Origin: Hexactinellida sp. DTS-2022
Taxonomy: Eukaryota; Porifera; Hexactinellida
Direction: 5' to 3'
Length of the DNA stretch: 64,000 nucleotides
Assembly: GCA_028753945.1 (NCBI GenBank)
Contig: JAPNXP010000003.1
Coordinates: 2,170,001-2,234,000 of the forward strand
Shown here: one piece after another, positions 7,851 to 59,327 of the stretch
How positions within the stretch are numbered: position 1 is the first letter of the stretch
How the letters are laid out: every line of letters begins with the position of its first letter
Notes under the pieces: model-generated
What the model was told of the DNA's origin: nothing
Seen by the model: the letters and a program-made list of their open reading frames with translations, nothing else
Databases searched by the model: none
Translations under genes and position numbers: made by a program

Positions 7851-8690
7851 TTCTCCGTAGACGGTGCCCTGGCCTGAGCTTTATAGTTGATGGGCTGAAA
7901 CTTGGCATGTAGGTGCGTATGGACCGTCTAATTTGCACCTGGGGTTACAATTTTTTATTAACAAATTTTTGACACATCTTTAACACCTTTCAAAATTTGT
8001 CTGGTCCATAGCTAGAAAAATGTTTTACTAAACCCCCAAATTTTATTTCACATTTGGATTCACCATAAAATTCTGCGTCTGATGGGAGAAGAAAATTTGT
8101 TAAAATTGGTTTAATTTCTGCCATAAATGGGGGTTGAAATTCCTTTGTTTACTCAACACTTCAATTTCAATAAAACTGTGAAATCTAATTCCATTGTTTC
8201 AACTTGTAATAATTATATTGATTTAACTTGTTAAAGCTTTCACTATTGTTTCAACTTGCGATAATTAAATTGATTCAACTTATAAATTCCAGCTGGCTTC
8301 TATTTAATTCTAGTATTACTATACAATGGATTAAATAAAATAATATAATATAAGGAATTTGTTGACTAAACTCAAATCACCGTGGATAACATTGCTAAAA
8401 TAACTAACTAATAATATAATTCATTATCAATACATAATGAATGAATGGCATTGAACTCTAGATGGTTTATGATAGAAACAAACTTCAAATTTATCTACCG
8501 TTCCTTGTGACTCGGGCCAAATAACAAATGCTTCTTCACACCTTGGGCGTTGATGACTTGGCAAAAAAAATCCAAAATTGCAGCCTGCGCCGACAGCATG
8601 TTCCTCTGGAGGCACTATCAATAAACAACACAAAAATAGAGTGCCACCAAAGGAACATGCGTCGGCACAGGGTGCAATTTTGGATTTTTT
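7851..8690 (+). repeat. Composite repeat long unit 1 (type A)
   Basis: Starts TCTCCGTAGACGGTGCCC, carries GACCGTCTAATTTGCACC shortly after (a short inverted match to AGACGGT), and ends in a hairpin at about 8566-8690 whose arms begin TCCAAAATTGCAGCC and close GGGTGCAATTTTGGA. A single 54-bp monomer follows (8691-8768). No gene. Confidence 0.9.
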
Positions 8691-8768
8691 TTACTGTGCC
8701 GACTATACTATAGTATAGTGGCCCAGTATTGGAATCACTGCCTTTATTATTTTTATTATTTTTTTTTT

Positions 8769-9605
8769 CTCCGTAGACGGTGCCCTGGCCAGAGCTTTAT
8801 AGTTGATGGGCTTAAACTTGGCATGTAGGTGCGATGGTACCGTCTAATTTGCACCTGGGGTTACGATTTTTGATTAACAAATTTTTGACACATCTTTAAC
8901 ACCTTTCAAAATTTGTCTGGTCCATAACACAAAATATGTTTTACTAAACCCCCAAATTTTATTTCACATTTGGATTCACCATAAAATTCTGCGTCTGATG
9001 GGAGAAGAAAACTTTCAATAAAGAGTTTTATTTCTGCCATAAATGGGGGTTGAAATTTCTTTGTTTACTCACACTTCAGTTTCAGTATAACTGTTAAATC
9101 TAATTCCATTGTTTCAACTTGTAATAATTATATTGATTTAACTTGTTAAATCTTACTCTATTGATTCAACTTGCGATAATTAAATTGATTTAACTTATAA
9201 ATTGCAGCTGGCTTCTATTTAATTTACCATACAATGGATTAAATAAAATAATATAATATAAGGAATTTGTTGACTTAATTCAACTCAACCGTGGATAACA
9301 ATGCTAATATAAATAACTAATAATATAATTTATTATCAATACATAATGAATGAATGGCATCAAACTCAAGATGGTTTAAGATAGAAACAAACTTCAAATT
9401 TATCTACCGTTCCTTGTGACTCGGACCAATTAACAAATGCTTCTTCACACCTTGGGCGTTGATGACTTGGCGAAAAAAAATCCAAAATTGCAGCCTGTGC
9501 CGACAGCATGTTCCTTTGGAGGCACTATCAATAAACAACCAACAAAATATAGTGCCACCAAAGGAACATGCGTCGGCACAGGGTGCAATTTTGGATATTT
9601 TTTTT
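8769..9605 (+). repeat. Composite repeat long unit 2 (type A)
   Basis: Same architecture as the unit at 7851. It is nearly identical to the unit at 13503-14338. The terminal hairpin is at about 9476-9598, with a monomer at 9618-9690. Confidence 0.9.
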
Positions 9606-9690
9606 TATTATTATTTTTACTGTGCCGACTATACTATAGTATAGTGGCCCAGTATTGGAATCACTGCCTTTATTATTATTTTTTTTTTTT

Positions 9691-10950
9691 TTCTCCGTAG
9701 ACGGTGCCCTGGCAAGAGCTTTAGAGTTGATGGGCTTAAACTTGGCATGTAGGTGCGATAGGACCGTCTAATTTGCACCTGGGGTTACGATTTTTGATTA
9801 ACAAATTTTTTACACATCTTTAACACCTTTCAAAATTTGTCTGGTCCATAACTCAAAAATTGTTTTACTAAACCCCCACATTTTATTTTATATTTGGATT
9901 CACCATAAAATTCTGCGTCTGATGGGAGAAGAAACCTTTCAATAAAGGGGTCAATTTCTGCCATAAATGGGGGTTGAAATTTCTTTGTTTACTCACACTT
10001 CAATTTCAGTAAAGTGTTAAATCTAATTCCATTGTTTCAACTTGTAATAATTATATTGATTTAACTTGTTAAATCCTACTCTAGTGATTCAACTTGCGAT
10101 AATTATATTGATTCAACTTATAAATTCCAGCTGGCTTCTATTTTGCAATTGAAAATTAAGATTATATATTTCATAACAACGACATATTATGTGATTATAT
10201 TTACTTCTGCGTGAATATAATTGCACTGTTAATATACTGACGTAATTAATTATAAATAATTCAGTTTGTATTTAACTTATATAGAAGCTTCCAATTTGTA
10301 TATTAGAGGTTATCGAGTGTGCGGAATTGAAATTTGATAGATAAATTAATTAATTAATTATTTATGACAAAATAATTAAACTTAATAATTGTATGTTGAC
10401 ATTGAAATTGGTGTCATATTATAAATAATATTAATAATTATTTATACTAATTAATTAAATATCATAAATCTCAGAGATCATAGAAGATAGAAACAAACTT
10501 TCAATATATCAATTGGTCCTTATGACACGTGCCACCTATACAAGTGGGTCTTGACACCTTGAGGTGATGATGACATCGTTAAAAAAATGTGTTTTTACAA
10601 TTTTGTTAATTCGATATTTAAAATGGGTTAGTTAATGTTGGTTGATGACCCAACACCCACTTAAAAAATGCTGAGTCATTACAGATTATATTCTACTGAA
10701 ACTTGAATATCTCTTTAATGAAGTGAGCTGAATGGAAACTTCCACCACTCTAAAGGGTCGTTGCCTTCTGAAACACCTTTCTGAAATAATTTAACACCTT
10801 CATAGTGATGATGACATGGCGAAAAAAAAAATCCAAAATTGCAGCCTGTGCCGACAGCATGTTCCTTTGGAGGCACTATCAATAAACCAACAACAAAATA
10901 TAGTGCCACCAAAGGATCATGCGTCGGCACAGGCTGCAATTTTGGATTTT
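9691..10950 (+). repeat. Composite repeat long unit 3 (type A/B chimera)
   Basis: Opens like type A but from about 10130 continues with the longer type-B body (GACACCTTGAGGTGATGATG motif near 10550, then a second related motif at 10795). Hairpin at 10828-10950, monomer after it. Nearly identical to 15333-16595. Confidence 0.9.
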
Positions 10951-11032
10951 ATTACTGTGCCGACTATACTATAGTATAGTGGCCCAGTTCTAATCTTAGT
11001 GCTTTGGTTAGTTATTATTATTATTATTTTTG

Positions 11033-12223
11033 GTCCGTAGATCGTCCACTGAACAGAGTTTAATTAACTAAGAACCCAAAATTTCAGGACAGGTGTCTCA
11101 TGGGTTACAGATGTGCACCTGGGGTCACGATTTTTTACTACATTTTTTTGGACACATTTTTGCACCTGTTTAATATTAGAAAAAGAACAATAAATAGTGC
11201 ACAAATATTTAATTTATATGCATTCGATAGAGAATTAAATTCTACACCTTTTCACAGTGCACGAATTTTTAAATTGAGTTTCGTTTGTGCCACAATTGAG
11301 TTGCAAGTTTCCTTTGTTTACTAACACTTCAGTTCAATTGAAGTGTTAAATCGAATTCTATTGTTTCAACTTGTGATAATTACATTGATTCAACTTGTGA
11401 GATCGAGTAGGCTTCTATTTTCTAATTGAAAACTAAGATTTTACATTCCATAACAACAACAGATTATGTGATTATATTTATTTCTGCTCAGAATATTCTT
11501 GAACAATGGATACATGAGATATTTAATTCTAATTAATTCGCTCTGTGTTTAACTTAGAGAAACGGTTCCAATTAGATTATTAGGGCATCGAGTGCGCTGA
11601 ATTCAAATATGATAGTGAAATTAAATTTAAATTAATTATTATAGCAAATAATTGAACTTAATTTATTTTGATGTAAATAATATTGGTGTTAAATTATCTT
11701 AGATTAATTAAATATTTATACTAATTATCTAAATTTCATTAATCTCAGAGATGATACAAGATAGAAACAAACTTTAAATTTATCAATTGGTCCTTATGGC
11801 ACGTACCACCTATACAAGTGGATCTTGACACCTTGAGGTGATGATGACATCGTCAAAAAAATGTATTTTTACAATTTTGTGAATTATATTATTAAAATGG
11901 GTTAGTTGGAGTTGGGTGATGACCCAACACTCACATAAAAAATGCTGATTCATCACTTATTATATTCTACTGAAACTTGAATATCTTTGAAACGAAGTGA
12001 GCAAAATGGAAACTTCCACCACTCTAAGGGTCGTAGCCTTCTGAAACACCTTTCTGAAATAATTTAACACCTTTATAGTGATGATGACTTGGTGAAAAAA
12101 AAAATCCAAAATTGCAGCCTGTGCCGACAGCATGTTCCATTGGAGGCACTATCAATAGACCACCACCAAAATATAGTGCCACCAAATGAACATGCGTCGG
12201 CACAGGCTGCAATTTTGGATTTT
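11033..12223 (+). repeat. Composite repeat long unit 4 (type B)
   Basis: Starts GGTCCGTAGATCGTCCACTG, carries GGGTTACAGATGTGCACC, the GACACCTTGAGGTGATGATG motif near 11828, and a terminal hairpin (12103-12223). Monomer at 12236-12300. Confidence 0.9.
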
Positions 12224-12302
12224 CTCACTTAGTTATTACTGTGCCGAATATACTATAGTATAGTGGCCCAGTTCTAATCTTAGTGCTTTGGTATATTATT
12301 AT

Positions 12303-13494
12303 TGGTCCGTAGCCTCTCCACTGAACAGAGTTTTACTAACTAAGAGCTCAAATTTTCAGGATATGTGTCTCATGGGTTACAGATGTGCACCTGGGGTCAC
12401 GATTTATTATTACATTTTTTTGGACACATTTTTGCACCTGTTTAATATTGAAACAGGAACAATAAATAGTACCCGAAAATTAAATTTATATGCATTCGAT
12501 AGAGAATTAAATTCTACACCTTTTCACAGTGCACGAATTTTAAAATTGTACTTAGTTTGTGCCACAATTGAGTTGCAAGTTTCCTTTGTTTACTAACACT
12601 TCAGTTCAATTGAAAGTGTTAAATCTAATTCTATTGTTTCAACTCGTTATTATTATATTGATTCAACTTGTGAGATCGAGTAGGCTTCTATTTTCCAATT
12701 GAAAAAAAAGATTCTACATTCCATAACAAAGACAGATTATTTGATTATGTTTATTTCTGCTTAGAATATTCTTGCACAATGGATACATGACGAATTTAAT
12801 TCAAATTAATTCGCTCTGTGTTTAACTTATAGAGATGGTTCCAAATAGATTAGTGGGGTTAACGAGTGCGCTGAATTCAAATATGATAGTGAAATTCAAT
12901 TTAGATTAATAATTATTGCAAAAAATTGAACTTTATTTATTTTGATGTACATAAAATTGGTGTTAAATTATTAATAGATTAATTAAATATTATACTACTT
13001 ATCTAAATTTCATTAATCTCAGAAATGATATAAGATGGAAACAAACTTTCAATTGATCAATTGGTCCTTATGGCACGTGCCACCTATACAAGTGGGTCTT
13101 GACACCTTGAGGTGATGATGACATCGTCAAAAAAATGTATTTTTACAATTTTGTGAATTCGATATTTAAAATGGGTTAATTGATGTTGGGTGATGACCCA
13201 ACACTCACATAAAAAATGCTGAGTCATCTGCTATTATATTCTACTCATACTCGAATATCTCTAAAATGAAGTGACTAAATGGAAACCTCCACCACTCTAA
13301 GGGTCGATGCCTTCTGTAACACCTTTTTGAAATAATTTAACACCTTCATAGTGATGATGACATGGCGGAAAACAAAATCCAAAATTGCAGCCTGTGCCGA
13401 CAGCATGTTCCTTTGGAGGCACTATCAATAAACCACCACCAAAATATAGTGCCACCAAAGGAACATGCGTCGGCACAGGCTGCAATTTTGGATT
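12303..13494 (+). repeat. Composite repeat long unit 5 (type B)
   Basis: Same plan as the unit at 11033. Ends in a hairpin at 13376-13494 and runs directly into the next unit with no monomer between. Confidence 0.9.
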
Positions 13495-13502
13495 TTTATT
13501 TT

Positions 13503-14338
13503 TTTCTCCGTAGACGGTGCCCTGGCCAGAGCTTAATTGTTGATGGGCTGAAACTTGGCATGTAGGTGCGATGGGACCGTCTAATTTGCACCTGGGGTAA
13601 CGATTTTTGATTAAGAAATTTTTGACACATCTTTAACACCTTTCAAAATTTGTCTGGTCCATAACACAAAATATGTTTTACTAAACCCCCAAATTTTATT
13701 TCACATTTGGATTCACCATAAAATTCTGCGTCTGATGGGAGAAGAAAACTTTCAATAAAGAGTTTTATTTCTGCCATAAATGGGGGTTGAAATTTCTTTG
13801 TTTACTCACACTTCAGTTTCAGTATAACTGTTAAATCTAATTCCATTGTTTCAACTTGTAATAATTATATTGATTTAACTTGTTAAATCTTACTCTATTG
13901 ATTCAACTTGCGATAATTAAATTGATTTAACTTATAAATTGCAGCTGGCTTCTATTTAATTTACCATACAATGGATTAAATTAAATAATATAATATAAGG
14001 AATTTGTTGACTTAATTCAACTCAACCGTGGATAACAATGCTAATATAAATAACTAATAATATAATTTATTATCAATACATAATGAATGAATGGCATCAA
14101 ACTCAAGATGGTTTAAGATAGAAACAAACTTCAAATTTATCTACCGTTCCTTGTGACTCGGACCAATTAACAAATGCTTCTTCACACCTTGGACGTTGAT
14201 GACTTGGCGAAAAAAAATCCAAAATTGCAGCCTGCGCCGACAGCATGTTCCTTTGGAGGCACTATCAATAAACAACCAACAAAATATAGTGCCACCAAAG
14301 GAACATGCGTCGGCACAGGGTGCAATTTTGGATTTTTT
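13503..14338 (+). repeat. Composite repeat long unit 6 (type A)
   Basis: Type A, nearly identical to 8769-9605 (offset about 4.74 kb). Hairpin 14214-14338. Two monomers follow at 14341-14473. Confidence 0.9.
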
Positions 14339-14473
14339 TTTTACTGTGCCGACTATACTATAGTATAGTGGCCCAGTATTAGAATCACTGCCTTTATTAC
14401 TGTGCCGACTATACTATAGTATAGTGGCCCAGTATTGGAATCACTGCCTTTATTTTTATTTTTATTATTATTT

Positions 14474-15315
14474 TTTCTCCGTAGACGGTGCCCTGGCCAG
14501 AGCTTTATAGTTGATGGGCTGAAACTTGGCATGTAGTTGCGGAGGGACCGTCTAATTTGCACCTGGGGTCACGATTTTTGATTAAGAAATTTTTGACACA
14601 TCTTTAACACCTTTCAAATTTTGTCTGGTCCATAACTCAAAAATTGTTTTACTAAACCCCCAAATTTTATTTCATATTTGGATTCACCATAAAATTTTGC
14701 GTCTGATGGGAGAAGAAAACTTTTAATAAAGAGTTTTATTTCTGCCATAAATGGGGGTTGAAATTTCTTTGTTTACTCACACTTCAATTTCAGTAAAACT
14801 GTGAAATCTAATTCCATTGTTTCAACTTGTAATATTTATATTGATTTAAGTTGTTAAATCTTACACTATTGTTTCAACTTGCTACAATTATATTGATTTA
14901 ACTTGTGAATTCCAGCTGGCTTCTATTTAATTCTAGTATTACTATACAATGGATTAAATAAATTATAATAATATAAGGAATTTGTTGACTCAACTCAACC
15001 AACCGTGGATAACATTGCTAAAATAAATTCCTGATAATATATTTTATTATCAATACATAATGAATGAATGGCATTAAACTCTTGATGGTTTATGATAGAA
15101 ACTAACTTCAAATTTATCTACCGTTCCTTGTAACTCCGACCAATTAACAAATGGTTCTTCACACCTTGGGCGTTGATGACTGGGCGAAAAAAAATCCAAA
15201 ATTGCACCCTGTGCTGACAGCATGCTCCTTTGGAGGCACTATCAATAACCAACCAATAAAATATAGTGCCACCAAAGGAACATGCTGTCAGCACAGGGTG
15301 CAATTTTGGATTTTT
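14474..15315 (+). repeat. Composite repeat long unit 7 (type A), covarying hairpin
   Basis: Type A. The hairpin (15193-15315) differs from the family in both arms at the same pairs: GCACCCTGTGCTGACAGC on the left and its complement on the right. Confidence 0.9.
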
Positions 15316-15332
15316 TTTTATTATTTTTATTT

Positions 15333-16595
15333 TTTCTCCGTAGACGGTGCCCTGGCCAGAGCTTTATAGTTGATGGGCTTAAACTTTGCATGTAGGTGCG
15401 ATGGGACCGTCTAATTTGCACCTGGGGTTACGATTTTTGATTAACAAATTTTGGACACATCTTTAACACCTTTCAGAATTTGTCTGGTCCATAACTCAAA
15501 ATATGTTTTACTAAACCCCCAAATTTTATTTCATATTTGGATTCGCCATAAAATTCTGCGTCTGATGGGAGAATAAATCTTCCAATAAAGGGGTCAATTT
15601 CTGCCATAAATGGGGGTTGAAATTTCTTTGTTTACTCACACTTCAATTTCAGTAAAGTGTTAAATCTAATTCCATTGTTTCAACTTGTAATAATTATATT
15701 GATTTAACTTGTTAAATCCTACTCTAGTGATTCAACTTGCGATAATTATATTGATTCAACTTGTGAATTCAAGCTGGCTTCTATTTTGCAATTGAAAATT
15801 AAGATTATATATTTCATAACAACGACATATTATGTGATTATATTTACTTCTGCGAGAATATAATTGCACTGTTTATATACTGACGTAATTAATTATAAAT
15901 AATTCAGTTTGTATTTAACTTATATAGAAGCTTCCAATTTGTATATTAGAGGTTATCGAGTGTGCGGAATTGAAATTTGATAGATAAATTAATTAATTAA
16001 TTATTTATGACAAAATAATTGAACTTAATAATTGTATGTTGACATTGAAATTGGTGTCATATTATAAATAATATTAATAATTATTTATACTAATTAATTA
16101 AATATCATAAATCTCAGAGATCATAGAAGATAGAAACAAACTTTCAATATATCAATTGGTCCTTATGACACGTGCCACCTATACAAGTGGGTCTTGACAC
16201 CTTGAGGTGATGATGACATCGTTAAAAAAATGTGTTTTTACAATTTTGTTAATTCGATATTTAAAATGGGTTAGTTAATGTTGGTTGATGACCCAACACC
16301 CACTTAAAAAATGCTGAGTCATTACAGATTATATTCTACTGAAACTTGAATATCTCTTTAATGAAGTGAGCTGAATGGAAACTTCCACCACTCTAAAGGG
16401 TCGTTGCCTTCTGAAACACCTTTCTGAAATAATTTAACACCTTCATAGTGATGATGACATGGCGAAAAAAAAAAATCCAAAATTGCAGCCTGTGCCGACA
16501 GCATGTTCCTTTGGAGGCACTATCAATAAACCAACAACAAAATATAGTGCCACCAAAGGATCATGCGTCGGCACAGGCTGCAATTTTGGATTTTT
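15333..16595 (+). repeat. Composite repeat long unit 8 (type A/B chimera)
   Basis: Duplicate of 9691-10950 at an offset of about 5.64 kb. Hairpin 16473-16595. No monomer after it. Confidence 0.9.
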
Positions 16596-16608
16596 TTTTG
16601 TTTTTTTT

Positions 16609-17434
16609 TCTCCGTAGACGGTGCCCTGGCCTGAAGTTGATGGGCTGAAACTTGGCATGTAGGTGCGATGGGACCGTCTAATTTGCACCTGGGGTTACGA
16701 ATTTTGAATAACAAATTTTTGACACATCTTTAACACCTTTCAAAATTTGTCTGGTCCATAACTCAAAAAATATTTTACTAAACCCCAAATTTTATTCCAC
16801 ATTTGGATTCACCATAAAATTCTGCGTCTGATGGGAGAAAAAAACTTTTAATAAAGAGTTTTATTTCTGCCATTAATGGGGGTTGAAATTTCTTTGTTTA
16901 CTCACACTTCAATTTCAGTAAAACTGTGAAATCTAATTCCATTGTTTCAACTTGTAATAATTATATTGATTTAACTTGTTAAATCTTACTCTATTGATTC
17001 AACTCGCGATAATTATATTGATTCAACTTATAAATTCCAGCTGGCTTCTATTTAATTGTAGTATTACTATACAATGGATTAAATAAAATCTAATAATATA
17101 AGGAATTTATTGACTTTACTCAAATCACCGTGGATAACATTGCATAAATAAATAACTAATAATATAATTTATTATCAATACAAAATGAATGAATGACATT
17201 AAACTCAAGATGGTTTGTGATAGAAACAGACTTCAAATTTATCAACCGTTCCTTGTGGCTCGGAACAATTAACAAATGGATCATGACACCTTGAGGCGTT
17301 GATGACATCGCGAAAAAATCCAAAATTGCAGATGTCTGACAGCATGTTCCTTTGGAGGCACTTTCAATAAACCACCAACAAGATATAGTGCCACCTAAGG
17401 AACATGCGTCGGCACAGCTGCAATTTTGGATTTT
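16609..17434 (+). repeat. Composite repeat long unit 9 (type A)
   Basis: Type A. Hairpin 17318-17434 with the short arm form (right arm GGCACAGCTGC, lacking GG). Monomer 17435-17502. Confidence 0.88.
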
Positions 17435-17504
17435 TACTGTGCCGACTATACTATAGTATAGTGGCCCAGTTCTAATCTTAGTGCTTTGGTTAGTTATTAT
17501 TATT

Positions 17505-18704
17505 CTTCCGTAGCTCATCCACAGAACAGAGTTTAATTAACTAACAACCCAAATTTGCAGGACAGGTGTCTCATGGGTTACAGATGTGCACCTGGGGTCA
17601 CGATTTTTTATTAACAAATTTTGTACTTTTTTTTGACACCTTTCAAATTTTGTCTGGTCCATAACTCAAAGAATGTTATACTAAACCCCCAATTTTCTTT
17701 TCACCATTGGATTCACTATAAAATTCTCCATCTGATGGGAGATGAATGTTTTTACTAATAGGTTTGATTCATGCCATAAATTGGGGTTGAAATTTCTTTG
17801 TTTACTAACACTTCAGTTCAATTGAAAGTGTTAAATCTAATTCTATTGTTTCAACTCGTTATTATTATATTGATTCAACTTGTGAGATCGAGTAGGCTTC
17901 TATTTTCCAATTGAAAAAAAAGATTATATATTTCACAACAACGACAGATTATGTGATTATATTTACTTCTGCGAGAATATTATTGGACTGTTAATATACT
18001 GACGTAATTAATTATAATTAATTCAGTCAGTATATTACTTATATAGATGCTTATAATTTGTTTATTAGGGGTTATCGAGAGTGCTTAATTGAAATTTGAT
18101 AACAAAATAATTAATTTATTATTCATGACAAAATAATTTAATTTAATAATTGTAAGTTGACATTGAAATTGGTGTTAAATTATTAATTTATTAATTAAAT
18201 ATTTATACTAATTAATTAAATATCATAAATCTCAGAAATCAAATAAGATAGAAACAAACTTCCAATTTATCAATTGATCCTTATGCCACGTAACACCTCT
18301 ACAAGTGGGTCTTGACACCTTGAGGTGATGATGACATCGTAAAAAAAATTGTTTTCACAATTTTGTGAATTATATAATTCAAATGGGTCGGTTCGTTTTG
18401 GGTGATGACCCAGAGCTCACATAAAAAATGCTGAGTCATCAGCTATTATATTCTACTGAAACTTGAATATCTTTGAAATGAAGTGAGCATAAAAGAAATT
18501 TACAACTCACTAAGGGTCGTTGCCTTTTGAAACACCTTTCTGAAATAATTTAACACCTTCGTAGTGATGATGACATGGCGGAAAAAAAATCCAAAATTGC
18601 AGCCTGTGCCGACAGCATGTTCCATAGGAGGCACTATCAATAAACCACACCAAAATATAGTGCCACCAAAGGAACATGCGTCGGCACAGGCTGCAATTTT
18701 GGAT
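17505..18704 (+). repeat. Composite repeat long unit 10 (type B start)
   Basis: Starts TTCCGTAGCTCATCC, mixes type-A middle sequence (TTTGTCTGGTCCATAACTC) with a type-B body. Hairpin 18590-18704. Confidence 0.88.
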
Positions 18705-18713
18705 TTTATTATT

Positions 18714-19039
18714 CTTCCGTAGCCACTCCACAGAACAGAGTTTTATCAACTAAGAGCCCAAATTTTTAGGATGGGTGTCTCATGGGTTACAGATGTGCAC
18801 CTGGGGTTACGATTTTTGATTAAATTTTTTTGGACACATCTTTAACACCTTTCAAAATTTGTCTTGTCCATAACTCAAAATATGTTTTAATAAACCCCAA
18901 AATTTTATTTAATATTTAGATTCATCTCCAAAATTGCAGCTGTGCTGACAGCATGTCCCATTGGAGGCACTATCAATAAACAACCAACAAAATATAGTGC
19001 CACCAAAGGAACATGCGTCGGCACAGCTGCAATTTTGGA
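18714..19039 (+). repeat. Composite repeat long unit 11, internally deleted
   Basis: Only about 200 bp of 5' sequence joined directly to a hairpin (18929-19039) at GATTCATCTCCAAAATTGC. The body is missing. Confidence 0.88.
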
Positions 19040-19043
19040 TTTT

Positions 19044-20271
19044 TATTTCTCCGTAGACGGTGCCCTGGCCACACCTGTATACATTGGGGGCTGAAACTTG
19101 GCATGCAGGTTCGGAGTGACCGTCTAATTTGCACCTGGGGTTACGATTTTTGATCAACTAATTTTAACACCTATTCAAACTAATTATGGCTATTACATGA
19201 AATCATACCTTGTCAATTTGATAAAATTTTCACATTGGATAGCAAATTTAATTTTACACCTTTTGGAAAATCAAAAATATTCAACTTTGCGTTAATTTTT
19301 GCCACAAATCGGGGTTTAAATTTCTTTGTTTACCCACACCTCCATTTCAGTAAAACTGTTAAATCTAATTCCATTGTTTCAACTTGTAATAAATATATTG
19401 ATTAAACTTGTTAAATCTTACACTATTGTTTAAACTTGCGATAATCATATTGATTCAACTTGTGAGATCGAGTAGGCGTCTATTTTCTAATTGAAAACTA
19501 AGATATTACATTCCTTAACAACGACAGGTTATGTGTTTATATTTACTTCTGCGTGAATACTCTGCACAATGGATACACTGACATAATTAATCGCTCTGTC
19601 TTTAACTTATAGAGACTGTTCCAATTAGATTATTGGGGTTATCGAGTGTGCGGAATTCAAATATTATAATGAAATTTAATTAAAATTAATAATAATTGCA
19701 AATAATTGAACTTCATTTATTTTGCTATACATAATAATGGTGATAAATAATTAATAAATAAATAATTATTTATAATGATTTGATAAATAGCATTAATCTC
19801 AGAGATTATACAAGATTGAGACAAACTTCCAGTGTATCAATTGATCCTTATGCCAAGTAGCACCTCTGCAAATGTGTCTTGACACCTTGAGGTGCTAATG
19901 ACATCCTCAAAAAAATGAGTTTTGACAATTTTGTGAATTATATAATTCGAATGGGTTGGTTGGTGTTTGGTGATTACTCAACACGCACATAAAAATGCTG
20001 AGTCATCAACTATTATATTCAACTCAAACTAGAATATCTCTAAAATTAAGTGAGCTAAATGGAAACTTTCACCACTCTAAGGGTCGATGCCTTCTGAAAC
20101 ACCATTCTGAGATAATTCAACACCTTCATGGTGATGATGACATGGCGAAAAAAAATCGAAAATTGCAGCTGTGCCGACAGCATGTTCTTTGGAGGCACTA
20201 TCAATAAATCACCACCACAATATAGTGCCACCAAAGGAACATGCGGCGGCACAGGCTGCAATTTTGGATTT
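19044..20271 (+). repeat. Composite repeat long unit 12 (variant)
   Basis: Opens with CTGGCCACACC and has a distinct block around 19155-19270 (TTTTAACACCTATTCAAAC) in place of the usual TTTGTCTGGTCCATAA block. Hairpin 20149-20271, monomer 20274-20335. Confidence 0.85.
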
Positions 20272-20336
20272 TTATTACTGTGCCGACTATACTTTAGTAT
20301 AGTGGCTCAGTTCTAATCTTACTGCCTTTATTATTA

Positions 20337-20654
20337 TTTCTCCGTAGACGGTGCCCTGGCCACACCTTTATACAATGAGGGCTGAAACTTGGCATGTAGG
20401 TTCGAAGTGACCGTCTAATTTACACCTGGGGTTACGATTTTTTATCAAATAATTTTAACACCTATTTAAACTAATTATGGCTCATTACATGAAATCATAC
20501 CTTGTGAACTTGATAAAATTTAATATTTGGATAGCTAATTTAATTCTACACCTTTTGGAAAAATCACAAATATTCAACTGTGTGTTGTTTATGCCATAAT
20601 TGGGGTGCCAATCTCCTCTATTTCCTCGCACTTCAAATTCAGTAAACATTAAAA
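20337..20654 (+). repeat. Composite repeat long unit 13, cut at an inversion boundary
   Basis: Same variant as the unit at 19044, running only to the hairpin at 20654, after which the family continues on the opposite strand. Confidence 0.85.
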
Positions 20655-21508
20655 AATCCAAAATTGCAGCCTGTGCCGACGCATGTTCCTTTGGTAGCAC
20701 TATATTTTGTAGGTTGTTTATTGATAGTGCCTCCAAAGGCTACATGCTGTCGGCACAGGCTGCAATTTTGGATTTTATTTTCGCCTAGTCATCAACGCCT
20801 CAAGATGTCAAGAACCATTTGTTAATTAATTGTTCCAAGTCACAAGGAACGGTAGATAAATTTGAAGTTTGTTTCTATTCATAAACCATGTTGAGTTAAT
20901 GAGTTTAATGCCATTCATTCATTATGTATTGATAATAAATTATACTATTAGTTATTTATTTTAGCAATGTTATCCACGGTGATTTGAGTAAAGTCAATAA
21001 ATTCCTTATATTATTAGATTTTATTTAATCCATTGTATAGTAATACTACAATTAAATAGAAGCCAGCTGGAATTTATAAGTTAAATCAATATATTTATCG
21101 CGAGTTGAATCAATAGAGTAAGATTTAACAAGTGAAATCAATATAATTATTACAAGTTGAAACAATGGAATTAGATTTCACAGTTTTACTAAATTGAAGT
21201 GTGAGTAAACAAAGAAATTTCAACCCCAATTTATGGCAGAAATTAAACCCTTTATTGAAAGTTTTCTTCTCCCATCAGAAGCAGAGTTTTATGGTGAATC
21301 CAAAGGTAAATAAAAAGTATATAAAAAGTATAACATTTTTTGAGTTATGGACCAGACATAATTTGAAAGGTGTTAAAGATGTGTCAAAAATTTCTTAATC
21401 AAAAATCGTAACCCCAGGTGCAAATTAGACGGTATTAACGCACCTACATGCCAAGTTTCAGCCAATCAACTATAAAGCTCTGGCCAGGGCACCGTCTAAG
21501 GAGAAAAA
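20655..21508 (-). repeat. Composite repeat long unit 14, inverted
   Basis: Reverse-complement type-A unit. Its hairpin (20654-20777) abuts the truncated unit before it, and its start (GGCACCGTCTAAGGAGAA on the plus strand) is at 21489-21508. The loop of the hairpin is also inverted (GGTTGTTTATTGATAG). Confidence 0.9.
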
Positions 21509-24532: not shown

Positions 24533-24702
24533 AGGCCTTCATCTAGCCCTAAGAGATCCGCGCACCCTAGGTGATGTTGATTTTTCAATGGCGCACCCAA
24601 ATTTGCCCAAATCGTACATTTACCAAAAAAGACCAAAAATAGTATTAGAAATACTCTGGGTGCGCACTGCGCACCCAAATTAATTCCAATTTCACGCACC
24701 AT
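24533..24702. other. Insert replacing a left hairpin arm
   Basis: Sequence rich in GCGCACCC motifs (24570, 24592, 24660, 24672) on both strands. It replaces the left arm and loop of the unit's hairpin. Source not recognised. Confidence 0.45.
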
Positions 24703-24756
24703 TGCCACCAAAGGAACATTCGTCGGCACAGGCTGCAATTTTTGATTTGATTTTGA

Positions 24757-25612
24757 TTTTCTCCGTAGACGGTGCCCTGGCCACACCTTTATAGATTAAG
24801 TCCTGAAACTTGGGATGTAGGTGCGGTGTTACCGTCTAATTTGCACCTGGGGATACGATTTTTTATCAACAAACTTTCGACACATTTTTAACACCTTTCA
24901 AAGAATTTTTGGACCATAACTCAAAAAATGTTATACTAAACCCTCAATTTTTATTCCACCATTGGATTTACCATAAAATTCTGCGTCTGATGGGAGAAGA
25001 TAAATTTCAATAATGGGTTTAATTTATGCCATAAATGGAGGTTGAAATTCCCTTTGTTTACTAACACTTCAGTTCAATTTAAAGTGTTAAATCAAATTCT
25101 ATTGTTTCAACTTCTAATAATTATATTGATTTAACTTGATAAATCTTACTCTATTGATTCAACTCGCGATAATAATATAGATTTAACTAATAAATTCCAG
25201 CTGGATTCTATTTAATTGTAGTATTACTATACAATGGATTAAATATAATAATATAAGGAATTTGTTGACTCAACTCAAATCACCGTGGATAACATTGCTA
25301 AATTAATTAAACATTATATTATAATATATTATCAATGCATAATGAATGAATGGCAATAAACTCAAGATGGTTTAAGATTGAAACAAACTTCAAATTTATC
25401 AATCCTTCCTTCGTCCGGTGGCAAGGCTGACTGACTACTTGATAAATGGGTCTAACGAAACAGCTTGAGGCGTTAATTCCATGGCGAAAAAAATCCAAAA
25501 TTGCAGCTGTGCCGACAGCATGTTCCTTTGGAGACACTATCAATAAACCACCACAAAAAGATAGTGCCACCAAAGGAACATGTGTCGGCACAGCTACAAT
25601 TTTGGATTTTAT
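24757..25612 (+). repeat. Composite repeat long unit, last of the first array
   Basis: Type-A/variant unit starting TCTCCGTAGACGG. The hairpin (25492-25612) has the short arm form on both sides (GCAGCTGTGCC / GGCACAGCT). Confidence 0.88.
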
Positions 25613-42935: not shown

Positions 42936-43995
42936 TTACTGTGCCGACTATAGTATAGTGGCCCAGTTCTATTCAATGTTAGAAAAGGAACAATAAATAG
43001 TACCCGAATATTCAATTTATATGTATTCGATAGAGAATTAAATTCTACACCTTTTCACAGTGCACGAATTTTCAAATTGCGCTTCGTTTGTGCCACAATT
43101 GAGTTGCAAATTTCCTTTGTTTACTAACACTTCAAGTTCAATTGAGAGTGTTAAATTTAATTCTATTGTTCTAACTTGTAATAATTATATTTATTCAACT
43201 TGTGAGATCGAGTAGGCTTCTATTTTCTAATTGAAAACTAAGATTATATATTTCATAACAACGACAGATTTTGTGATTATATTCATTTCTGCTTAGAATA
43301 TTCTTGTACAATGGATACATGACATATTTAATTCCAATTAATTCGCTCTGTGTTTAACTTATAGAGACGGTTCCAATTAGATTATTGGGGTTATCGAGTG
43401 CGCTGAATTCAAATATGATAGTGAAATTAAATTAAAATTAATGATATGTAATTGCAAATAATTGACTTTTTTTTGCTGTACATAATAATGGTGTTAAATT
43501 ATTAGTAAATTAATAATTATTGATACAATTAATTAAATATCCTAAATCTCAGAGATTATCCTAGATAGAAACAAACTTCCAATTTATCAATTGATCCTTA
43601 TGCCACGTACCACCTATACAAGAGGGTCTTGACTCCTTAAGGTGATGATGACATCGTAAAAAATAGGTTTTTACAATTTTGTGAGTTATACAGTATAATG
43701 CGAATGGGTGATGACCCAACACGCACATAAAAAATGCTGAGTCATCACTTATTATAATCTACTCAAACTTGAATATCTCTAAAATGAAGTGAACTAAATG
43801 GAAACTTCCACCACTCTAAGGGTCGATGCCTTCTGAAATAATTTAACACCTTCATAGTGATGATGACATCGCGAAAAAATCCAAAATTGCAGCCTGTGCC
43901 GACAGCATGTTCCTTTGGAGGCACTATCAATAAACAACCAACAAAATACAGTACCACCAAAGGAACATGCGTTTGCACAGGCTGCAATTTTGGAA
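42936..43995 (+). repeat. Isolated composite repeat unit (type B)
   Basis: A shortened monomer (core ACTATAGTATAGTGG, 42946-42960) joined to a type-B unit that lacks its first 200 bp. Hairpin 43878-43995. Confidence 0.88.
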
Positions 43996-44056
43996 TTGTT
44001 ATTATTGTAACTCCCTCGAATTAGATTGTATTTTGATTCAAATCAATGATTTAAAT

Positions 44057-49068: not shown

Positions 49069-49152
49069 TATTATTAAAAATAAATGATAAGAAAGACATA
49101 CTCGTCATTCATATGCCAAAAATGTAGCTAATTTACAGGAATTCAAATGGAG

Positions 49153-49962: not shown

Positions 49963-49973
49963 AATGGAGTTAC

Positions 49974-50255: not shown

Positions 50256-50365
50256 CTAATAGAGTACAATATAAAATTATAATACAGTACATATCTTTGG
50301 CAGAGGTATGTTCGATCGTAAGTGCTTTTATTGCAACAATAAATTTCATTTCAATATCAAATAAA

Positions 50366-50520
50366 CAAGCACGCTTCGCTTGCTTTCGCTGCACGGCTGC
50401 GGAAACTTGGTGCCCACAGATGGTCCGGTCCCTCGTATATCCCAATAAACTGCTATCTGACAGATGACATTTGAAAAGTAAACAACATATACTCATAGTA
50501 GCATACCTATGACTAGACAA
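50366..50520 (-). mobile_element. Helitron 3' end fragment in a host intron
   Basis: Reverse complement ends GCAGCGAAAGCAAGCGAAGC then GTGCTTG before T, matching the tail of 3526-4122, including GGGATATA upstream. The 5' end is not identifiable. Confidence 0.6.
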
Positions 50521-50682
50521 TAAAATTCATATTCGGAATCAGCATAATTGATTACCCCATATATAAATTGGAGGAAGCAATTATAAAATTGCTATTTCGT
50601 TAATTAAACTTCTCAAACCAATCAATTTGATTCCGAAAAACATTGCCAGGACATTAGCACACTAAACAAACATAATGCATAC

Positions 50683-53365: not shown

Positions 53366-53367
53366 AG

Positions 53368-54562
53368 TCCGTAGCCTCTCTACTGAACAGAGTTTTACTA
53401 ACTAAGAGCCCAAATTTTCAGGATATGTGTCTCATGGGTTACAGATGTGCACCTGGGGTCACGTTTTATTATCACATTCTTTTGGACACATTTTTGCACA
53501 AATTTTATATTAGAAAAAGAACAATAAATAGTGCGCGAATATTCAATTTATATGCATTCGATAGAGAATTAAATTCTACACCTTGTCACAGTGCACAAAT
53601 CTTCAAATTGTACATAGTTTGTGCCACAATTGAGTTGCAAGTTTCATTTGTTTACTAACACTTCAGTTCAATTGAAAGTGTTAAATCAAATTCTATTGTT
53701 TCAACTCGTTATTATTATATTGATTCAACTTGTGAGATCGAGTAGGCTTCTATTTTCCAAACGAAAAAAAAGATTATATATTTCACAACAACGACAGATT
53801 AAGTGATTATATTTACTTCTGCGAGAATATTATTGCACTGTTAATATACTGACGTAATTAATTATAATTAATCCAGTCAGTATATTACTTATATACGTAG
53901 ATGCTTATAATTTGTTTATTAGGGGTTATCGAGAGTGCAGAATTGAAATTTGATAACCAAATTAATTAATTAATTATTTATGACAAAATAATTTAACTTA
54001 ATAATTGTAAGTTGACATTGAAATTGGTGTTAAATTAAAAATAATATTAATTATTATTTATACTAATTAATTAAATATCATAAATCTCAGAGATCATAGA
54101 AGATAGAAACAAACTTTCAATTAATCAATTGGTCCTTATGGCACGTGCCACCTATACAAGTGGGTCTTGACACCTTGAGGTGATGATGACATCGCTAAAA
54201 AAATGAGTTTTTACAATTTTGTTAATTCGATATTTAAAATGGGTTAGTTGATGTTGGGTGATGACCCAACACTCACATAAAAAATGCTGAGTCAACAGCT
54301 ATTATATTCTAATGAAACTTGAATATCTCTCAAATGAAGTGAGCAAAATGGAAACTTCCACCACTCTAAGGGTCGTAGACTTCTGAAACACCTTCCTGAA
54401 ATAATTTAACACCTTTATAGTGATGATGACTTGGCGAAAAAAATCCATAATTGCAGCCTGTGCCGACAGCATGTTCCATTGGAGGCACTATCAATAAACC
54501 ACCAACAAAATATAGTGCCACCAAAGGAACATGCGTCGGCACAGGCTGCAATTATGGATTTT
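53368..54562 (+). repeat. Composite repeat unit (type B) with covarying hairpin
   Basis: Starts GTCCGTAGCCTCTC. The hairpin at 54443-54562 has CCATAATTGC on the left and GCAATTATGG on the right, a paired change from the family's CCAAAATTGC / GCAATTTTGG. Confidence 0.9.
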
Positions 54563-54563
54563 A

Positions 54564-55635
54564 TTAGTCCGTAGATCGTCCACAGAACAGAGTTTTATTA
54601 ACTAAGAGCCCAAATTTTCAGGATATGTGTCTCATGGGTTACAGATGTGCACCTGGGGTTACGATTTTTTATTAACAAATTTTGGACACATCTTTAACAC
54701 CTTTCAAGATTTGTCTGGTCCATAACTCAAAATATGTTTTACTAAACCCACAAATTTTATTTCACATTTAGATTCACCATAAAATTCTGCGTCTAATGGG
54801 AGAAGAAATTTTATTATAATGGGTTTAATTTCTGCCATAAATGGGGGTTGAAATTTCTTTGTTTACTCACACTTCAATTTCAATAAAACTGTTAAATCTA
54901 ATTCTATTGTTTCAACTTGTAATAATTATATTGATTTAACTTGTTAAATCCTACTCTATTGATTCAACTTGCGATAATTATATTGATTTAACTTATAAAT
55001 TCCAGCTGGCTTCTATTAAATTGTAGTATTACTATACAATGGATTAAATAAAATAATATAATATAAGGAATTTGTTGACTCAACTCAACCAACCGCAGGG
55101 GCGGCGGAAGCGGTCAGGCCGATCAGGCCATGGCCTGACCACTTTTATCAAGTGGCCAGACCGATAGCCTGACCACTCTACGTCACTAGTTAGGCCGGTC
55201 AAGCCATGGCCTGACCACTTTTATCAAGTGGCCAGACCGATAGCCTGACCACTCTACGTCACTAGTTAGGCCGGTCAAGCCATGGCCTGACCACTTTATA
55301 ATTGCTTCCGCCGTCCCTGAACAGTGGATAACATTGCTAAAATAAATTACTAATAATATATTTTATTATCAATACATAATGAATGAATGGCATTAAACTC
55401 TTGATGGTTTATGATAGGAACTAACTTCAAATTTATCTACCGTTCCTTGTGACTCGGACCAATTAACAAATGGATATTGACACCTTGAGGCGATGATGAC
55501 TTGGCAAAAAAAATCCCAAATTTCAGCCTGCGCCAACAGCATGTTCCTTTGGAGGCACTATCAATAAACCACCAACAAAATATAGTGCCACCAAAGGAAC
55601 ATGCGTCGGCACAGGCTGCAATTTTGGATTTTTTT
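54564..55635 (+). repeat. Composite repeat unit with nested element
   Basis: Type B start joined to type A body. Interrupted at 55096-55319. Hairpin 55516-55635, left arm altered (TTTCAGCCTGCGCCAAC). Confidence 0.88.
55096..55319. mobile_element. Inverted-repeat element with internal tandem repeats
   Basis: Ends CAGGGGCGGCGGAAGC and GCTTCCGCCGTCCCTG. Short flank repeat AACCG / AACAG only. Inside, about 2.5 copies of a ~75-bp unit built on GGCCATGGCC and ATCAAGTGGCCAGACC. Confidence 0.8.
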
Positions 55636-55637
55636 TT

Positions 55638-56389
55638 CTCCGTAGACGGTGCCCTGGGCACATCTTTATACATAGAGAGCTGAAACTTGTCATGTAGGTG
55701 CGGAGTGCCCTTCTAATTTGCACCTGGGGTTACGATTTATGATAAAATAATTTTAACACCTATTTAATCCAATTATGGCTTAGCCAATTAAATTCGAGGG
55801 TTGTCCCAGTATGAATTAGTAGCTAGCATCCAATTAGTATAAAAGGATTTTCTATCAATTGTTAGTGTGCATATAGAATGTCTAACCGAGGGTGTAATTT
55901 AATTGGTAGAGAGTAAGAAGATTTAACTTATTAAATCTTTCACTATTGTTTCCACTTGCGATAATTAAATTGATTTAACTTGTGAATTCGAGCTGGCTTC
56001 TATTTAATAGACTTATACAATACAATGGATTGAATCAAATTAAATTAATTAAATAAGGAATTTGTTGAATTTAAACTCACCTTGGATAACATTGCTAAAA
56101 TACTTACATATTTATATTATTTATTATCTATACATAATCAATGTCAATAAATTCAAGATGGTTTAAGATAGAAATAAACTTCAAATTCAAACAATAGTTC
56201 CTTAGTCCCGTAACAACTTGTTAAATGAGTCTAAACACCATGAGGCGTTCATGACATGGCGAAAGAAATCAAAAATTGCAGCTGTGAAGACAGCATATTC
56301 CTTTGGAGGCACTATCAATAAAACACCACCAAAATATAGTGCCACCAAAGGAACATGCGTCGGCACAGCTGCAATTTTGGATTTTTTTT
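55638..56389 (+). repeat. Composite repeat unit containing a Helitron-like segment
   Basis: Starts TCTCCGTAGACGGTGCCC. Positions 55780-55918 match the interior of the Helitron at 3717-3865 rather than the family. Hairpin 56268-56389 (short arm form on both sides). Confidence 0.8.
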
Positions 56390-56390
56390 T

Positions 56391-57766
56391 TTTTTCTCCG
56401 TAGACGGTGCCACGGCCAGAGCTTTATAGTAGATGGGCTGGAACTTGGCATGTAGGTGCGATGGCACCGTCTAATTTGCACCTGGGGTTACGATTTCTGA
56501 TCAACAAATTTTGGACAGCTCTTTAACACTTTCAAAATTTGTCTGGTCCATAACTAGAAAAATGTTTTACTAAACAAATTTTATTTCACATTTGGATGCA
56601 CCATAAAATTCTGCTTCTGATGGGAAAAGAAAATTTTAAATAATGGTTTTAATTTCTGCCATTAATGGGGGTTGAAATCTCTTTGTTTACTCACACTTCA
56701 ATTTCTATAAAACTGTTAAATCTAATTCCATTGTTTCAACTTGTAATAATTATATTGATTTAACTTGTTAAATCTTTCACTATTGTTTCAACTTGCGATA
56801 ATTATATTGATTTAACTTATAAATTCCAGCTGGCTTCTATTTAATTGTAGTATTACTATACAATGGATTAAATATAATAATATAATATAAGGAATTTGTT
56901 GACTCAACTCAAACAACCGTGGATAACATTGCTAAAATAAATAACTAATAATATAATTTATTGAATGAATGAATGGCATTAAACTCAAGATGGTTTATGG
57001 TAGAAACAAACTTCAAATTTATCTACCGTTCCTTGTGACTCGGATCAATTAACAAATGGTTCTTGACACCCAGAGGCCTTGATGACATTTCGAAAAAATC
57101 TTAAATTGCAGCTGTGCAGACAGCATGTTCCTTTGGAGGCACTATCAATAAACAACCACAAAAATATAGTGCTGATGCAGTCCAATTACGTTTCAACGCC
57201 AAACGGGTTTGGCGTATTTTAGTTCAGCCAAACACGTTTGGCGTGTTTATATACGCCATTCGCGTTTCTAACATTATTTCTTTGTATTTGTTGTTATTTA
57301 ATTTAATTAATTAATTAATTAATGCTAGTTAGATTATTCACAAACAGAGTATCTAATTAATATTCAAATATCTGTTCTACAATATTTACTGATAATTTTC
57401 ATCTGTGTACTAAAATAATACCATTGCGACTTATACTAAATATTTAAAACCATCGTGAATTAAAAACAATTCACGTTCAAACTAAGTAATTGAACAATAT
57501 GTACTTGAACTATATGTACCTCGCCTTAGAGGGAAATATAATTCCGAATAATTCAAAATTATTTGTATTGGTGAACAACATTTGAATTAAATAACAACAA
57601 ATACAAAAAAATAATGTTAGAAACGCGAATGGCGTATATAAACACGCCAAACGCGTTTGGCTGAACTAAAATGCGCTTAACGCGTTTGGAGTTGAAACGC
57701 ACTTGGACTGCAACAGTGCCACCAAAGGGACATGTGTCGGCACAGGCTGCAATTTGGGATTTTTTA
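56391..57766 (+). repeat. Composite repeat unit, hairpin split by a MITE
   Basis: Type A unit. Left hairpin arm at 57098-57145, right arm at 57715-57766, with 57173-57714 inserted in the loop side. Confidence 0.88.
57173..57714. mobile_element. 542-bp long-TIR element, AAACGCGTTTGG motifs
   Basis: About 130-bp inverted ends beginning TGATGCAGTCC and ending GGACTGCAAC, flanked by AGTGC (57168-57172, 57715-57719). The arms carry repeated CCAAACGCGTTTGGC-like palindromes and ACATTATTTCTTTGTATTTG. No coding capacity. Superfamily uncertain. Confidence 0.82.
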
Positions 57767-57767
57767 T

Positions 57768-59327
57768 TTCTCCGTAGACGGTGCCCTGGCCAGAGCTTTA
57801 TAGTTAATGGCCTGAAACTTGGCTTGTAGGTGCGGTGTTACCGTCTAATTTGCACATGGGGTTACGATTTTTGATTAACAAATTTTGGACACATTTTTAC
57901 CACCTTTTAACGAATTTATGGTCCATAGCTCAAAAGATGTAATACTAAACCCCCAATTTTCATTACACCATTGGATTCACCATAAAATTTTGCGTCTAAT
58001 GGGAGAAGACTAATTTTGATAATGGGTTTAATTCATGCCACTAGTGGGGGTTTAAATTTCTTTGTTTACTCACACTTCAGTTTCAGTGAAACTGTTAGAT
58101 CAAATTCCATTGTTTAACTTGTAATAAATATATTGATTAAACTTGTTAAATCTTACACTATTGTTTAAACTTGCGATAATCATATTGATTCCACTTGTGA
58201 AATCGAGTAGGCTTCTATTTAATAATTGAAAACTAAGATTTTACATTCCATAACAACAACAGATTATGTGATTATATTTACTTCTGCGTGAATATTCTGC
58301 ACAATGGATACACTGACATAATTAATCGCTCTGTATTTTTTCTTATAGAGAAGGTTCCAATTAGATTATTGGGGTTATCAACTTATCGTGTACTCTGAAT
58401 TCAAGTATTATAGTGAAATTCAATTTAAATTAATAATTATTGCAAATAACTGAACTTAATTTAGTTTGCTGTACATAATAATGGTGTTAAATTATTAATA
58501 ATTTGAATAATTATTTATACTAATTTGCTAAATTTCATTAATCTCAGAAATGATATAAGATAGAAACAAACTTTCAATTTATTAATTGGTCCTTATGCCA
58601 CGTACTAGTGTTGTAAGGTCGGAAAATTTCCTAGGAAATTTCCAAAAAATAGCTAAATTTCCGGAAATTTTACAAGGAAAAATTATTATATATATACCTA
58701 GTTTTTTTAATTTTGATAAACCATATCTATAATGTAGAGTTGTTGTTACTGTGCGCTTGTTATTTTCCCTCATGGCAGTCTAACTTAAGTAGCACAAAAA
58801 ATTTGGCAATTTAAAATAAAGTTCCTAAGCATAATTTGAAATATGTAATCTTTCCGGAAATTTCCATGGAAAACAAAATTTTTGGAAATTTTACAACACT
58901 ACCACGTACCACCTATACAAGTGGGTCTTGACACCTTAAGGTGATGATGACATCGTAAAAAAAATTGGTTTTTACAATTTTGTGAATTATATAATGCGAA
59001 TGGGTTGGTTGGTATTGGGTGATGACCCAACACGCACATAAAAATGCTGACTCATCACTTATTATATTCTACTGAAACTTTAATATCTTTGAAATGAAGT
59101 GAGCTAAAACGAAACTTCCAACTGACTAAATAAAGGTCGTTGCCTTCTGAAACACCTTTCTGAAATAATTTAACACCTTCATAGTGTTGATGACATGACG
59201 AAAAAAAAATCCAAAATTGCAGCTGTGCCGACAGCATCCTTTGGAGGCACTATCAATAAACTACCACCAAATATAGTGCCACGGGCCACCAAAAGAACAT
59301 GCGTCGGCACAGCTGCAATTTTGGATT
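57768..59327 (+). repeat. Composite repeat unit (A to B chimera) with nested hAT
   Basis: Starts TCTCCGTAGACGGTGCCC, runs into a type-B body. Hairpin 59205-59327 (short arm form on both sides). Interrupted at 58606-58901. Confidence 0.88.
58606..58901. mobile_element. hAT-type MITE, TSD CCACGTAC, GGAAATTTCC-rich
   Basis: Ends TAGTGTTGTAAGGTCGG and AATTTTACAACACTA, exact duplication CCACGTAC (58598-58605, 58902-58909). Subterminal GGAAATTTCC palindromes. Confidence 0.92.

Follow-up and report, generated by a model that had tools for sequence, protein, structure and literature searches.

The question raised by this locus is whether the two arms of a long hairpin, repeated many times in a sponge genome, evolve as one sequence or as two. 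The locus is a stretch of 64,000 nucleotides (C12:2,170,001-2,234,000, hereafter the window) in a hexactinellid genome of 112 Mb and 18 contigs, and every intact hairpin in it is the end of a repeated unit. By its sequence features the repeat is a non-autonomous Helentron, a rolling-circle element of the Helitron2 type, and the hairpin is its 3' end. An earlier note on the window had counted about 20 copies of the terminal hairpin, and a profile search bears this out: there are 19 intact hairpins of ~125 nt, one interrupted hairpin and one lone right arm. The note had also claimed that the two arms change together, either by correcting each other or because the fold is selected. The examples in the window are real and the arms do not co-evolve in general: they are inherited as two side-specific sequences which mostly mutate independently, and in rare copies a stretch of the right arm bears marks of having been copied from the facing left arm.

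The hairpin arms are inherited as two side-specific sequences

The hairpin has arms of ~49 bp, a nearly fixed A.A mismatch and a left-arm bulge of one base (A in 230 of the 231 hairpins compared, C in one), at which left-arm GACAGC faces right-arm GCGTC. The predicted fold of the copy at 54,439-54,562 has an energy of -56.8 kcal/mol (z -17.6; 200 shuffles average -13.2 ± 2.5). By a simple string test, none of 298 loops was inverted. The 231 hairpins of the arm comparison were taken from the window (19), from 20 ten-kb stretches of C1 picked around flank matches (L001-L020; 135) and from 80 short stretches picked by the upstream flank only (L021-L100; 77), and are thus weighted towards contigs 1-3 and the window. 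They are what was left of 242 hits after three one-armed window entries and 8 partial hits had been dropped; removal of identical copies gave 187 distinct hairpins. Left arms were aligned with the reverse-complemented right arms, and columns are counted from the outer end of the arm.

For all 231 left arms, some other left arm is nearer than the right arm of the same hairpin. The mean number of differences is 4.87 between the two arms of one hairpin and 5.17 between a left arm and the right arms of other hairpins, compared with 3.28 among left arms and 2.46 among right arms. Clustering by side is the outcome that the earlier note itself had named as contradicting joint change.

Concerning the changes themselves, the 8,228 cells compared in the 187 distinct copies (not counting column 15 with its C loss, the two outermost columns or those of the mismatch) contain 251 changes in the left arm, 173 in the right arm, 12 identical doubles and 4 other doubles. 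The identical doubles exceed the expected 2.34 ± 1.48, and none of 4,000 within-subfamily shuffles was as high, although such shuffles do not control for diverged copies with many changes. Co-occurrence of changes with the true partner is 20 (expected 11.0), and it is also 20 (expected 9.1) when the partner is slid by -1; part of the excess therefore comes from diverged copies which are changed in both arms. Changes private to one copy are left-only in 34 cases, right-only in 38 and paired in none. The excess of identical doubles is thus the part of the claim that stands, whereas most changes are one-sided. In a check on covariation among the window copies, 3 pairs are changed on both sides, compared with 0.7 after shuffling (7 of 500 shuffles as high), and pairing is 93.7% against 93.3% (17/500), but a control slid by -3 equals the true covariation score of 0.024 and has 11 pair types against 9 for the true pairing.

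Most of the changes which have been amplified in subfamilies have no partner in the other arm; examples are left C at column 19 (87 of 187), right C at column 14 (30 of 187) and left A at column 38. The loss of a C/G pair, which is found in both arms of 26 distinct copies, in the left arm only of 9, in the right arm only of 22 and in neither arm of 130, is an old trait shared by lineages. In the window we recovered this loss at the places reported, i.e. in both arms at 18,929, 25,492, 56,268 and 59,205 and in one arm, the left, at 20,149 and 57,098; the right arm of the last copy lies beyond ~540 bp of other DNA and had been missed. The exchange of A-T for T-A in both arms at 54,443 and the unmatched arms at 8,566 and 55,516 were likewise found as described. 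Concerning the fold, the claim that it is selected for exact pairing fared poorly: subfamilies with unmatched arms have been amplified, and the hairpin of an autonomous relative with a 1,700-codon open frame (locus L161, see below) has 4 arm differences.

Filled bulges and the direction of the apparent copying

A search of the whole genome with exact contexts found 46 right arms with one base inserted opposite the left-arm bulge, of which 45 have T and one has A, and no insertion at one control site two bases away. The unfilled right-arm pattern matches 2,934 places (98 of 100 among the matches listed are right arms), and the complement of the bulge is present in about 1.5% of right arms in this context. 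In the 231-copy sample the single-base insertions of right arms number five, all of them T and all at the bulge site, while the two in left arms are located elsewhere. Filled arms occur in both orientations (29 forward, 17 reverse). Three of the 46 places were in hand and 43 were fetched, 39 of the latter with full hairpins; the filled hairpins were reduced from 43 to 42 by the removal of a tail-to-tail junction and then to 38 distinct ones.

In these copies, left-arm variants close to the bulge tend to reappear in the right arm. All 8 distinct filled copies with left C at column 19 mirror it, compared with 3 of 85 unfilled ones (p 2e-9); other left variants of columns 16-20 are mirrored in 2 of 3 filled and 0 of 37 unfilled copies (p 0.004); and for substitutions in columns 14-20, leaving out the two common ones, the counts are 4 of 8 and 3 of 43. 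When the 38 distinct filled copies exchange their left arms at random, the mismatches increase from 16 to 35.9 ± 2.4 (0/20,000). None of the 9 filled copies with left C has a right-arm subfamily mark that is missing from the left arm (C at column 14, or the C loss), whereas 60 of 122 unfilled ones do (p 0.004; copies not deduplicated). The copy at 15,190 in the window is a case in point: as the earlier note had seen, it has changes in both arms, two of which are mirrored substitutions accompanied by a right-arm base opposite the left-arm bulge, and its mirrored CTGAC is a state found in 1 of 187 distinct right arms. The third co-change of this copy (ACCC) may be older than the patch, since that right-arm state is common (30/187). 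Column 19 is 8 nt and column 14 is 13 nt from the bulge; only L136 mirrors a variant as far away as column 5, at 22 nt. In the outer columns (0-13), left variants reappear on the right in 1 of 11 filled and 6 of 53 unfilled copies, and as the filled copies thus show no more mirroring there than the unfilled ones, the patch usually ends before the outer end of the arm.

The reverse change is hardly found. No left arm without the bulge base is present in the 231 sampled copies, and the one genome match to such a pattern (L160) is really a right arm. A search for left arms that look like right arms at both asymmetries gave three matches: L163 and L164 are head-to-head junctions, in which the outer flank is the reversed right flank, and L165, with its normal flank, is read as a true reverse patch. 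Left-type arms in similar context number 2,039 genome-wide. With the tail-to-tail junction left out, the ratio of left-to-right over right-to-left is ~44:1 for exact contexts and without correction for shared filled ancestors. Of the proposal that the arms correct each other, what remains is a rare rewriting of the right arm from the left arm of the same copy, and it is not mutual (45 against one reverse). As a separate observation, the junctions at L163, L164 and L008:2425-2557 pass through the hairpin as if synthesis had run past the fold into the flank.

The explanation we regard as probable is one-way quasi-palindrome template switching, from the left arm into the right, during synthesis of the element's plus strand and probably in transposition. 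In a quasi-palindrome template switch, copying takes place within one molecule and then returns to the original template (PMC3820800). In the present case the growing plus strand, with its left arm already synthesised, would fold back on itself, and the nascent strand would use its own left arm as the template for the right arm before rejoining the true template. As in the quasi-palindrome mutations described in PMC3820800 and PMC8794818, an imperfect inverted repeat has one arm rewritten from the other; those cases concern yeast assays and RNA genes, whereas the repeat here is a transposon terminus and the polarity is strong. The two marks of the process, namely an extended identity of the arms and a template in the same molecule, are present in a statistical sense. 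The fixed polarity in elements on both chromosome strands suggests plus-strand synthesis driven by the element, since host replication should give both directions; synthesis would always be that of the element's plus strand, as expected of rolling-circle transposition rather than of ordinary chromosome replication. Paired changes that lineages share, the C/G-pair loss among them, would date from old events, of this kind or another, which transposition then amplified.

Several points weigh against this explanation. Most of the mirroring is due to column 19: at column 15, 5 of 5 filled and 25 of 34 unfilled copies have the C loss on the right as well (p 0.32), and mirroring failed for left variants in L104 and L125 (both 15T), L140 (16T) and L137 (14A). 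The pattern used to find filled copies requires the consensus in the inner right arm and for five bases past the bulge, so that patches are delimited on their outer side only, longer ones are missed and only columns 0-20 test mirroring. The 38 distinct filled copies have 27 distinct 20-base upstream flanks; as some of them share flanks, the 45 filled arms are not 45 independent events. The filled copy L008_2425 joins an A and a B unit (types described below) tail to tail, which means that events in trans exist, and it was excluded from the same-copy tests. As for direction, the count covers no right arms changed at both asymmetries, and left C at column 14 is found in two copies (L016_2592 and window 15186), both of which also have right C, a common state in right arms; this is possibly the result of one right-to-left event. 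Lastly, where a right-arm change has restored the A.A mismatch to pairing, the copies read (16 of 21) have no mirrored neighbours except the common C loss.

This mismatch was considered as a second proof of one-way repair, since pairing is restored by 21 of 31 right-arm changes and by 0 of 8 left-arm changes. It was set aside for want of mirrored neighbours in the 16 copies fetched; the restored right arms may retain an ancestral base. A possible bias of wobble pairs favouring one RNA sense, looked at by eye, was also dropped, as few alleles carry most of the counts.

The element and its copies in the window

Two patterns for the main flank types, with up to 3 mismatches, match 1,081 and 3,012 places in the genome, compared with 0 for reversed controls, and the full hairpin is present in 77 of 80 sampled places. 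The repeat is therefore an abundant family of ~4,100 places by these patterns, which its identification as a Helentron explains. An intact autonomous relative with both ends of the A-type unit was found in L161 and L162 (11.3 kb; L161 is C1:5,536,800-5,546,799), the one autonomous element examined end to end. It contains in order three palindromes, A1-455 (at 367-821, 93%), open frames of 437, 292 and 1,700 codons, and A471-834 with the hairpin (at 9,322-9,682, 91%), and all of its frames are on one strand with the unit ends. The 1,700-codon frame matches Helitron_like_N (1.4e-28) and PIF1 helicase (8e-25), as well as the endonuclease domains Exo_endo_phos (2.5e-06) and Exo_endo_phos_2 (7.9e-07), both past their cut-offs; in a comparison with PDB, Helraiser (1.8e-19) is 9th of 22 listed, after PIF1-type helicases. 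Helitron_like_N has 151 matches in the sponge genome and 0 in 14 control genomes. By eye, the matches listed seem to form two groups: one covers the entire domain, in frames of up to 1,930 aa, and the other starts at ~41-61 of the domain, with many frames of ~1,700 aa including that of L161.

The 5' end of the repeat is a ~34-bp palindrome, and an inverted motif of 10 bp is common to both ends (CTGTGCCGAC in the 5' palindrome, GTCGGCACAG in the hairpin). Copies terminate in ...GGATTTT at the 3' end and, by eye, in ...TTACTGTGCCGAC at the 5' end, and the 5' TC and 3' CTRR of canonical Helitron1 elements are not what these copies have. A T run followed by other DNA is found 3' of the hairpin in 45 of 285 copies, a few of which are internal element sequence. 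The solo copy at 4609-5442 of L004 has no obvious target duplication by eye, no empty site having been compared. The frame with Rep, helicase and endonuclease and the terminal features, which are those of Helentrons, identify the hairpin of the A unit as a 3' terminus, and to this extent the suggestion of a transposon terminus was right. The A unit looks like an internal-deletion derivative of the autonomous element: it shares both ends with the L161 element and has no coding part, as is the case for a Helentron-associated HINE. Among 17 predicted autonomous 3' ends the hairpin is full in 5, partial in 1 and absent from 11; since it is absent from most, L161 alone is verified as an autonomous element with the hairpin. 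A non-LTR retroelement, with the T-rich start as a reversed poly-A and the snap-back in reverse transcription, was first suggested by the polarity and was dropped, because the autonomous relative has a Rep-helicase-endonuclease frame and most units retain both ends.

Compared with known systems, the sponge element resembles the Helentrons, HINE and DINE-1 described by Thomas et al. 2014 (PMC4067079) in that Rep, helicase and endonuclease are in one frame, in the inverted motif near both ends, the 3' stem-loop, the tandem repeats and the T-rich ends, and in that non-autonomous deletion derivatives are more numerous than autonomous elements. It differs from the mite Helentrons of the same source, which have palindromes of 5-10 bp near the 3' end compared with arms of ~49 bp here, and its shared motif of 10 bp is shorter than the subTIRs of 12-15 bp given there and just under the 11 bp used there for family assignment. 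The Helitron2 elements of Fusarium oxysporum (FoHeli; PMC5148889) have an asymmetric terminal inverted repeat within a hairpin at both termini (FoHeli1 and FoHeli2) and share the 3' end ...ATTTT with the sponge element. In the parts of that source available to us, the fungal elements have short hairpins and no endonuclease domain is reported, whereas the sponge relative has the endonuclease and a long hairpin.

In the window, complete units start with (T)CCGTAG and are of type A (834 bp), type B (1,193 bp) or A/B mosaics, mostly head to tail. The A-type unit at 13507..14340 runs from CCGTAG to the end of the hairpin and matches both ends of the autonomous element; a B-type unit is at 53370..54562, and its hairpin is 95% identical to the A reference, compared with 65-67% for two 200-bp body stretches. 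Both are on the plus strand, as is the array at 7854..20635, in which A, B and A/B mosaic units follow one another head to tail. The gaps between a hairpin and the next unit often hold at least one ~59-bp unit with the palindrome ACTGTGCCGACTATACTATAGTATAGTGGCCCAGT, that of the 5' terminus, and arrays of this unit occupy 6367..7827 on the plus strand (6367-6745 and 7188-7827). Among 287 hairpins, the 3' neighbour is another unit in 173, the palindrome in 67 and other sequence after a T run in 45; two were left out, their downstream sequence being too short.

The plus-strand hairpins are located at 8566..8690 (unmatched arms, left TGCG and right GGGTGC), 9476..9601, 10827..10952, 12100..12225, 13373..13498, 14213..14338, 15190..15316 (bulge filled in the right arm and the left-arm variant CTGAC mirrored), 16471..16596, 17314..17434, 18585..18709, 18927..19045 (both arms without the C/G pair) and 20151..20274 (C loss in the left arm only). 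The hairpin at 20652..20780 is on the minus strand and belongs to the sole minus-strand unit found in the window (20651-21502). On the plus strand there follow a lone right arm at 24700..24751 and hairpins at 25489..25612 (without the C/G pair in both arms), 43875..43998 (end of an isolated B-type unit, the first ~137 bp of which are without match), 54439..54562 (A-T to T-A in both arms), 55509..55634 (four left-arm changes, unmatched), 56264..56387 and 59205..59331 (both arms of each without the C/G pair). The left arm and loop of the interrupted hairpin are at 57093..57174 (plus) and its right arm is at 57713-57765; the ~540 bp between them (57175-57712) are probably an insertion into a hairpin, and by eye contain inverted motifs around CGCCAAAC/GTTTGGCG.

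The window also contains other features. A MULE transposase frame at 51563-52672 (minus; PF10551 6e-14; within 51327-53184) is flanked by inverted arrays of a 15-bp unit, CCATCTTGCCGAAAG, which gives the impression that tandem arrays serve as its terminal inverted repeats. At 60804-63383, inverted arrays of 27/82-bp units, with arms of up to 141 nt and 97% identity, enclose two further minus-strand frames, one again of MULE type (61855-62706; PF10551 9e-12) and one with a RING finger (61161-61601). Three adjacent plus-strand frames are found at 28065-29954, the first of which is TNP-like RNase H (PF21787 2e-08) and the others are without Pfam match. Minus-strand retroelement fragments are present at 39945-41964, with Integrase_H2C2 above its cut-off, whereas rve and RVT_1 do not reach theirs. 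At 49153-49962 there is a 227-nt inverted repeat (96%), its arms 356 nt apart, which touches the end of a C2-domain frame (49933-50526, minus). Elsewhere in the genome, several identical hairpins recur ~10.2 kb apart in L016/L017 (C1 8,257,000-8,276,999), and a set of units is repeated at 3.9 kb in L003 (C1 5,017,000-5,026,999); both are recent segmental duplications.

Alternative explanations and what the hairpin may record

The strong polarity could also come from a switch on a fixed strand that is caused by transcription through the element and not by transposition. In yeast, high transcription was the one condition under which such events were seen, and the direction of replication influenced them (PMC3820800), which is in favour of such a cause; it would, however, require germline transcription in the same sense for thousands of dispersed copies, and we think it unlikely. 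Selection of the fold itself, as a DNA hairpin for transposition or as a structured RNA, with the paired changes being compensatory, would agree with the conservation of the hairpin between the A and B references relative to the two body stretches, with the strong folding energy and with some covariation in the window. On the other hand, the shared and amplified changes do not have more paired than unpaired cases, the arms differ by 4.9 on average and by 4 in the autonomous element, and the bulge and the A.A mismatch are retained in nearly all copies. Selection also predicts neither same-copy mirroring beside a filled bulge nor a one-way direction, and it appears improbable as an explanation. 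Rfam has no match at the gathering threshold within the window.

Symmetric correction within a cruciform, or a template switch at host replication forks once the element is inserted, is in keeping with same-copy mirroring and with the documented quasi-palindrome mutation in chromosomal DNA synthesis (PMC3820800, PMC8794818). Both predict about equal directions for elements in both orientations, whereas 45 cases (one in a junction) to 1 were observed, and we give them little credence. The A/B mosaic units and the tail-to-tail junction L008_2425 do indicate recombination among copies, but non-allelic gene conversion is a very unlikely cause of the likeness of the arms, as the own left arm fits best even when shuffling is confined to the same column-19 state with columns 15 and 19 taken out (15 mismatches vs 21.9 ± 1.3, 6/20,000). 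That filled right arms are an ancestral state kept by old copies, with no copying between arms, has hardly anything to recommend it beyond the strong divergence of at least one filled copy (L080), as the filled arms mirror left variants specific to a subfamily (8 of 8 distinct copies at column 19) and rarer ones as well (16A, 16T, 15T twice, 5T).

Returning to one-way template switching, the kind of element and the kind of mutation are known, and the length of the hairpin and the polarity are, to our knowledge, new; in the portions of the literature available to us on Helitrons and Helentrons with hairpins or on template switching, no report of arm copying was found. For the analysis of structured sequences in general, the arms carry a warning: covariation between hairpin arms can stem from mutation and not from selection, and here it is directional.

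The strand and the place of synthesis in Helitron-type transposition are hard to observe in living germ lines. In some models of Helitron transposition the minus strand, and not the plus strand, is made for the new copy. The near-fixed asymmetry in thousands of copies provides a countable marker, in which one direction would indicate plus-strand and the other minus-strand synthesis, and the polarity of the hairpin could thus discriminate between the models. Tentatively, the 3' hairpin may be a natural recorder of germ-line transposition, in which the plus strand is made through the 3' terminus and the polymerase stalls there and snaps back. If true, this would speak for displacement (rolling-circle) synthesis of the plus strand rather than for models that give new copies only a fresh minus strand.

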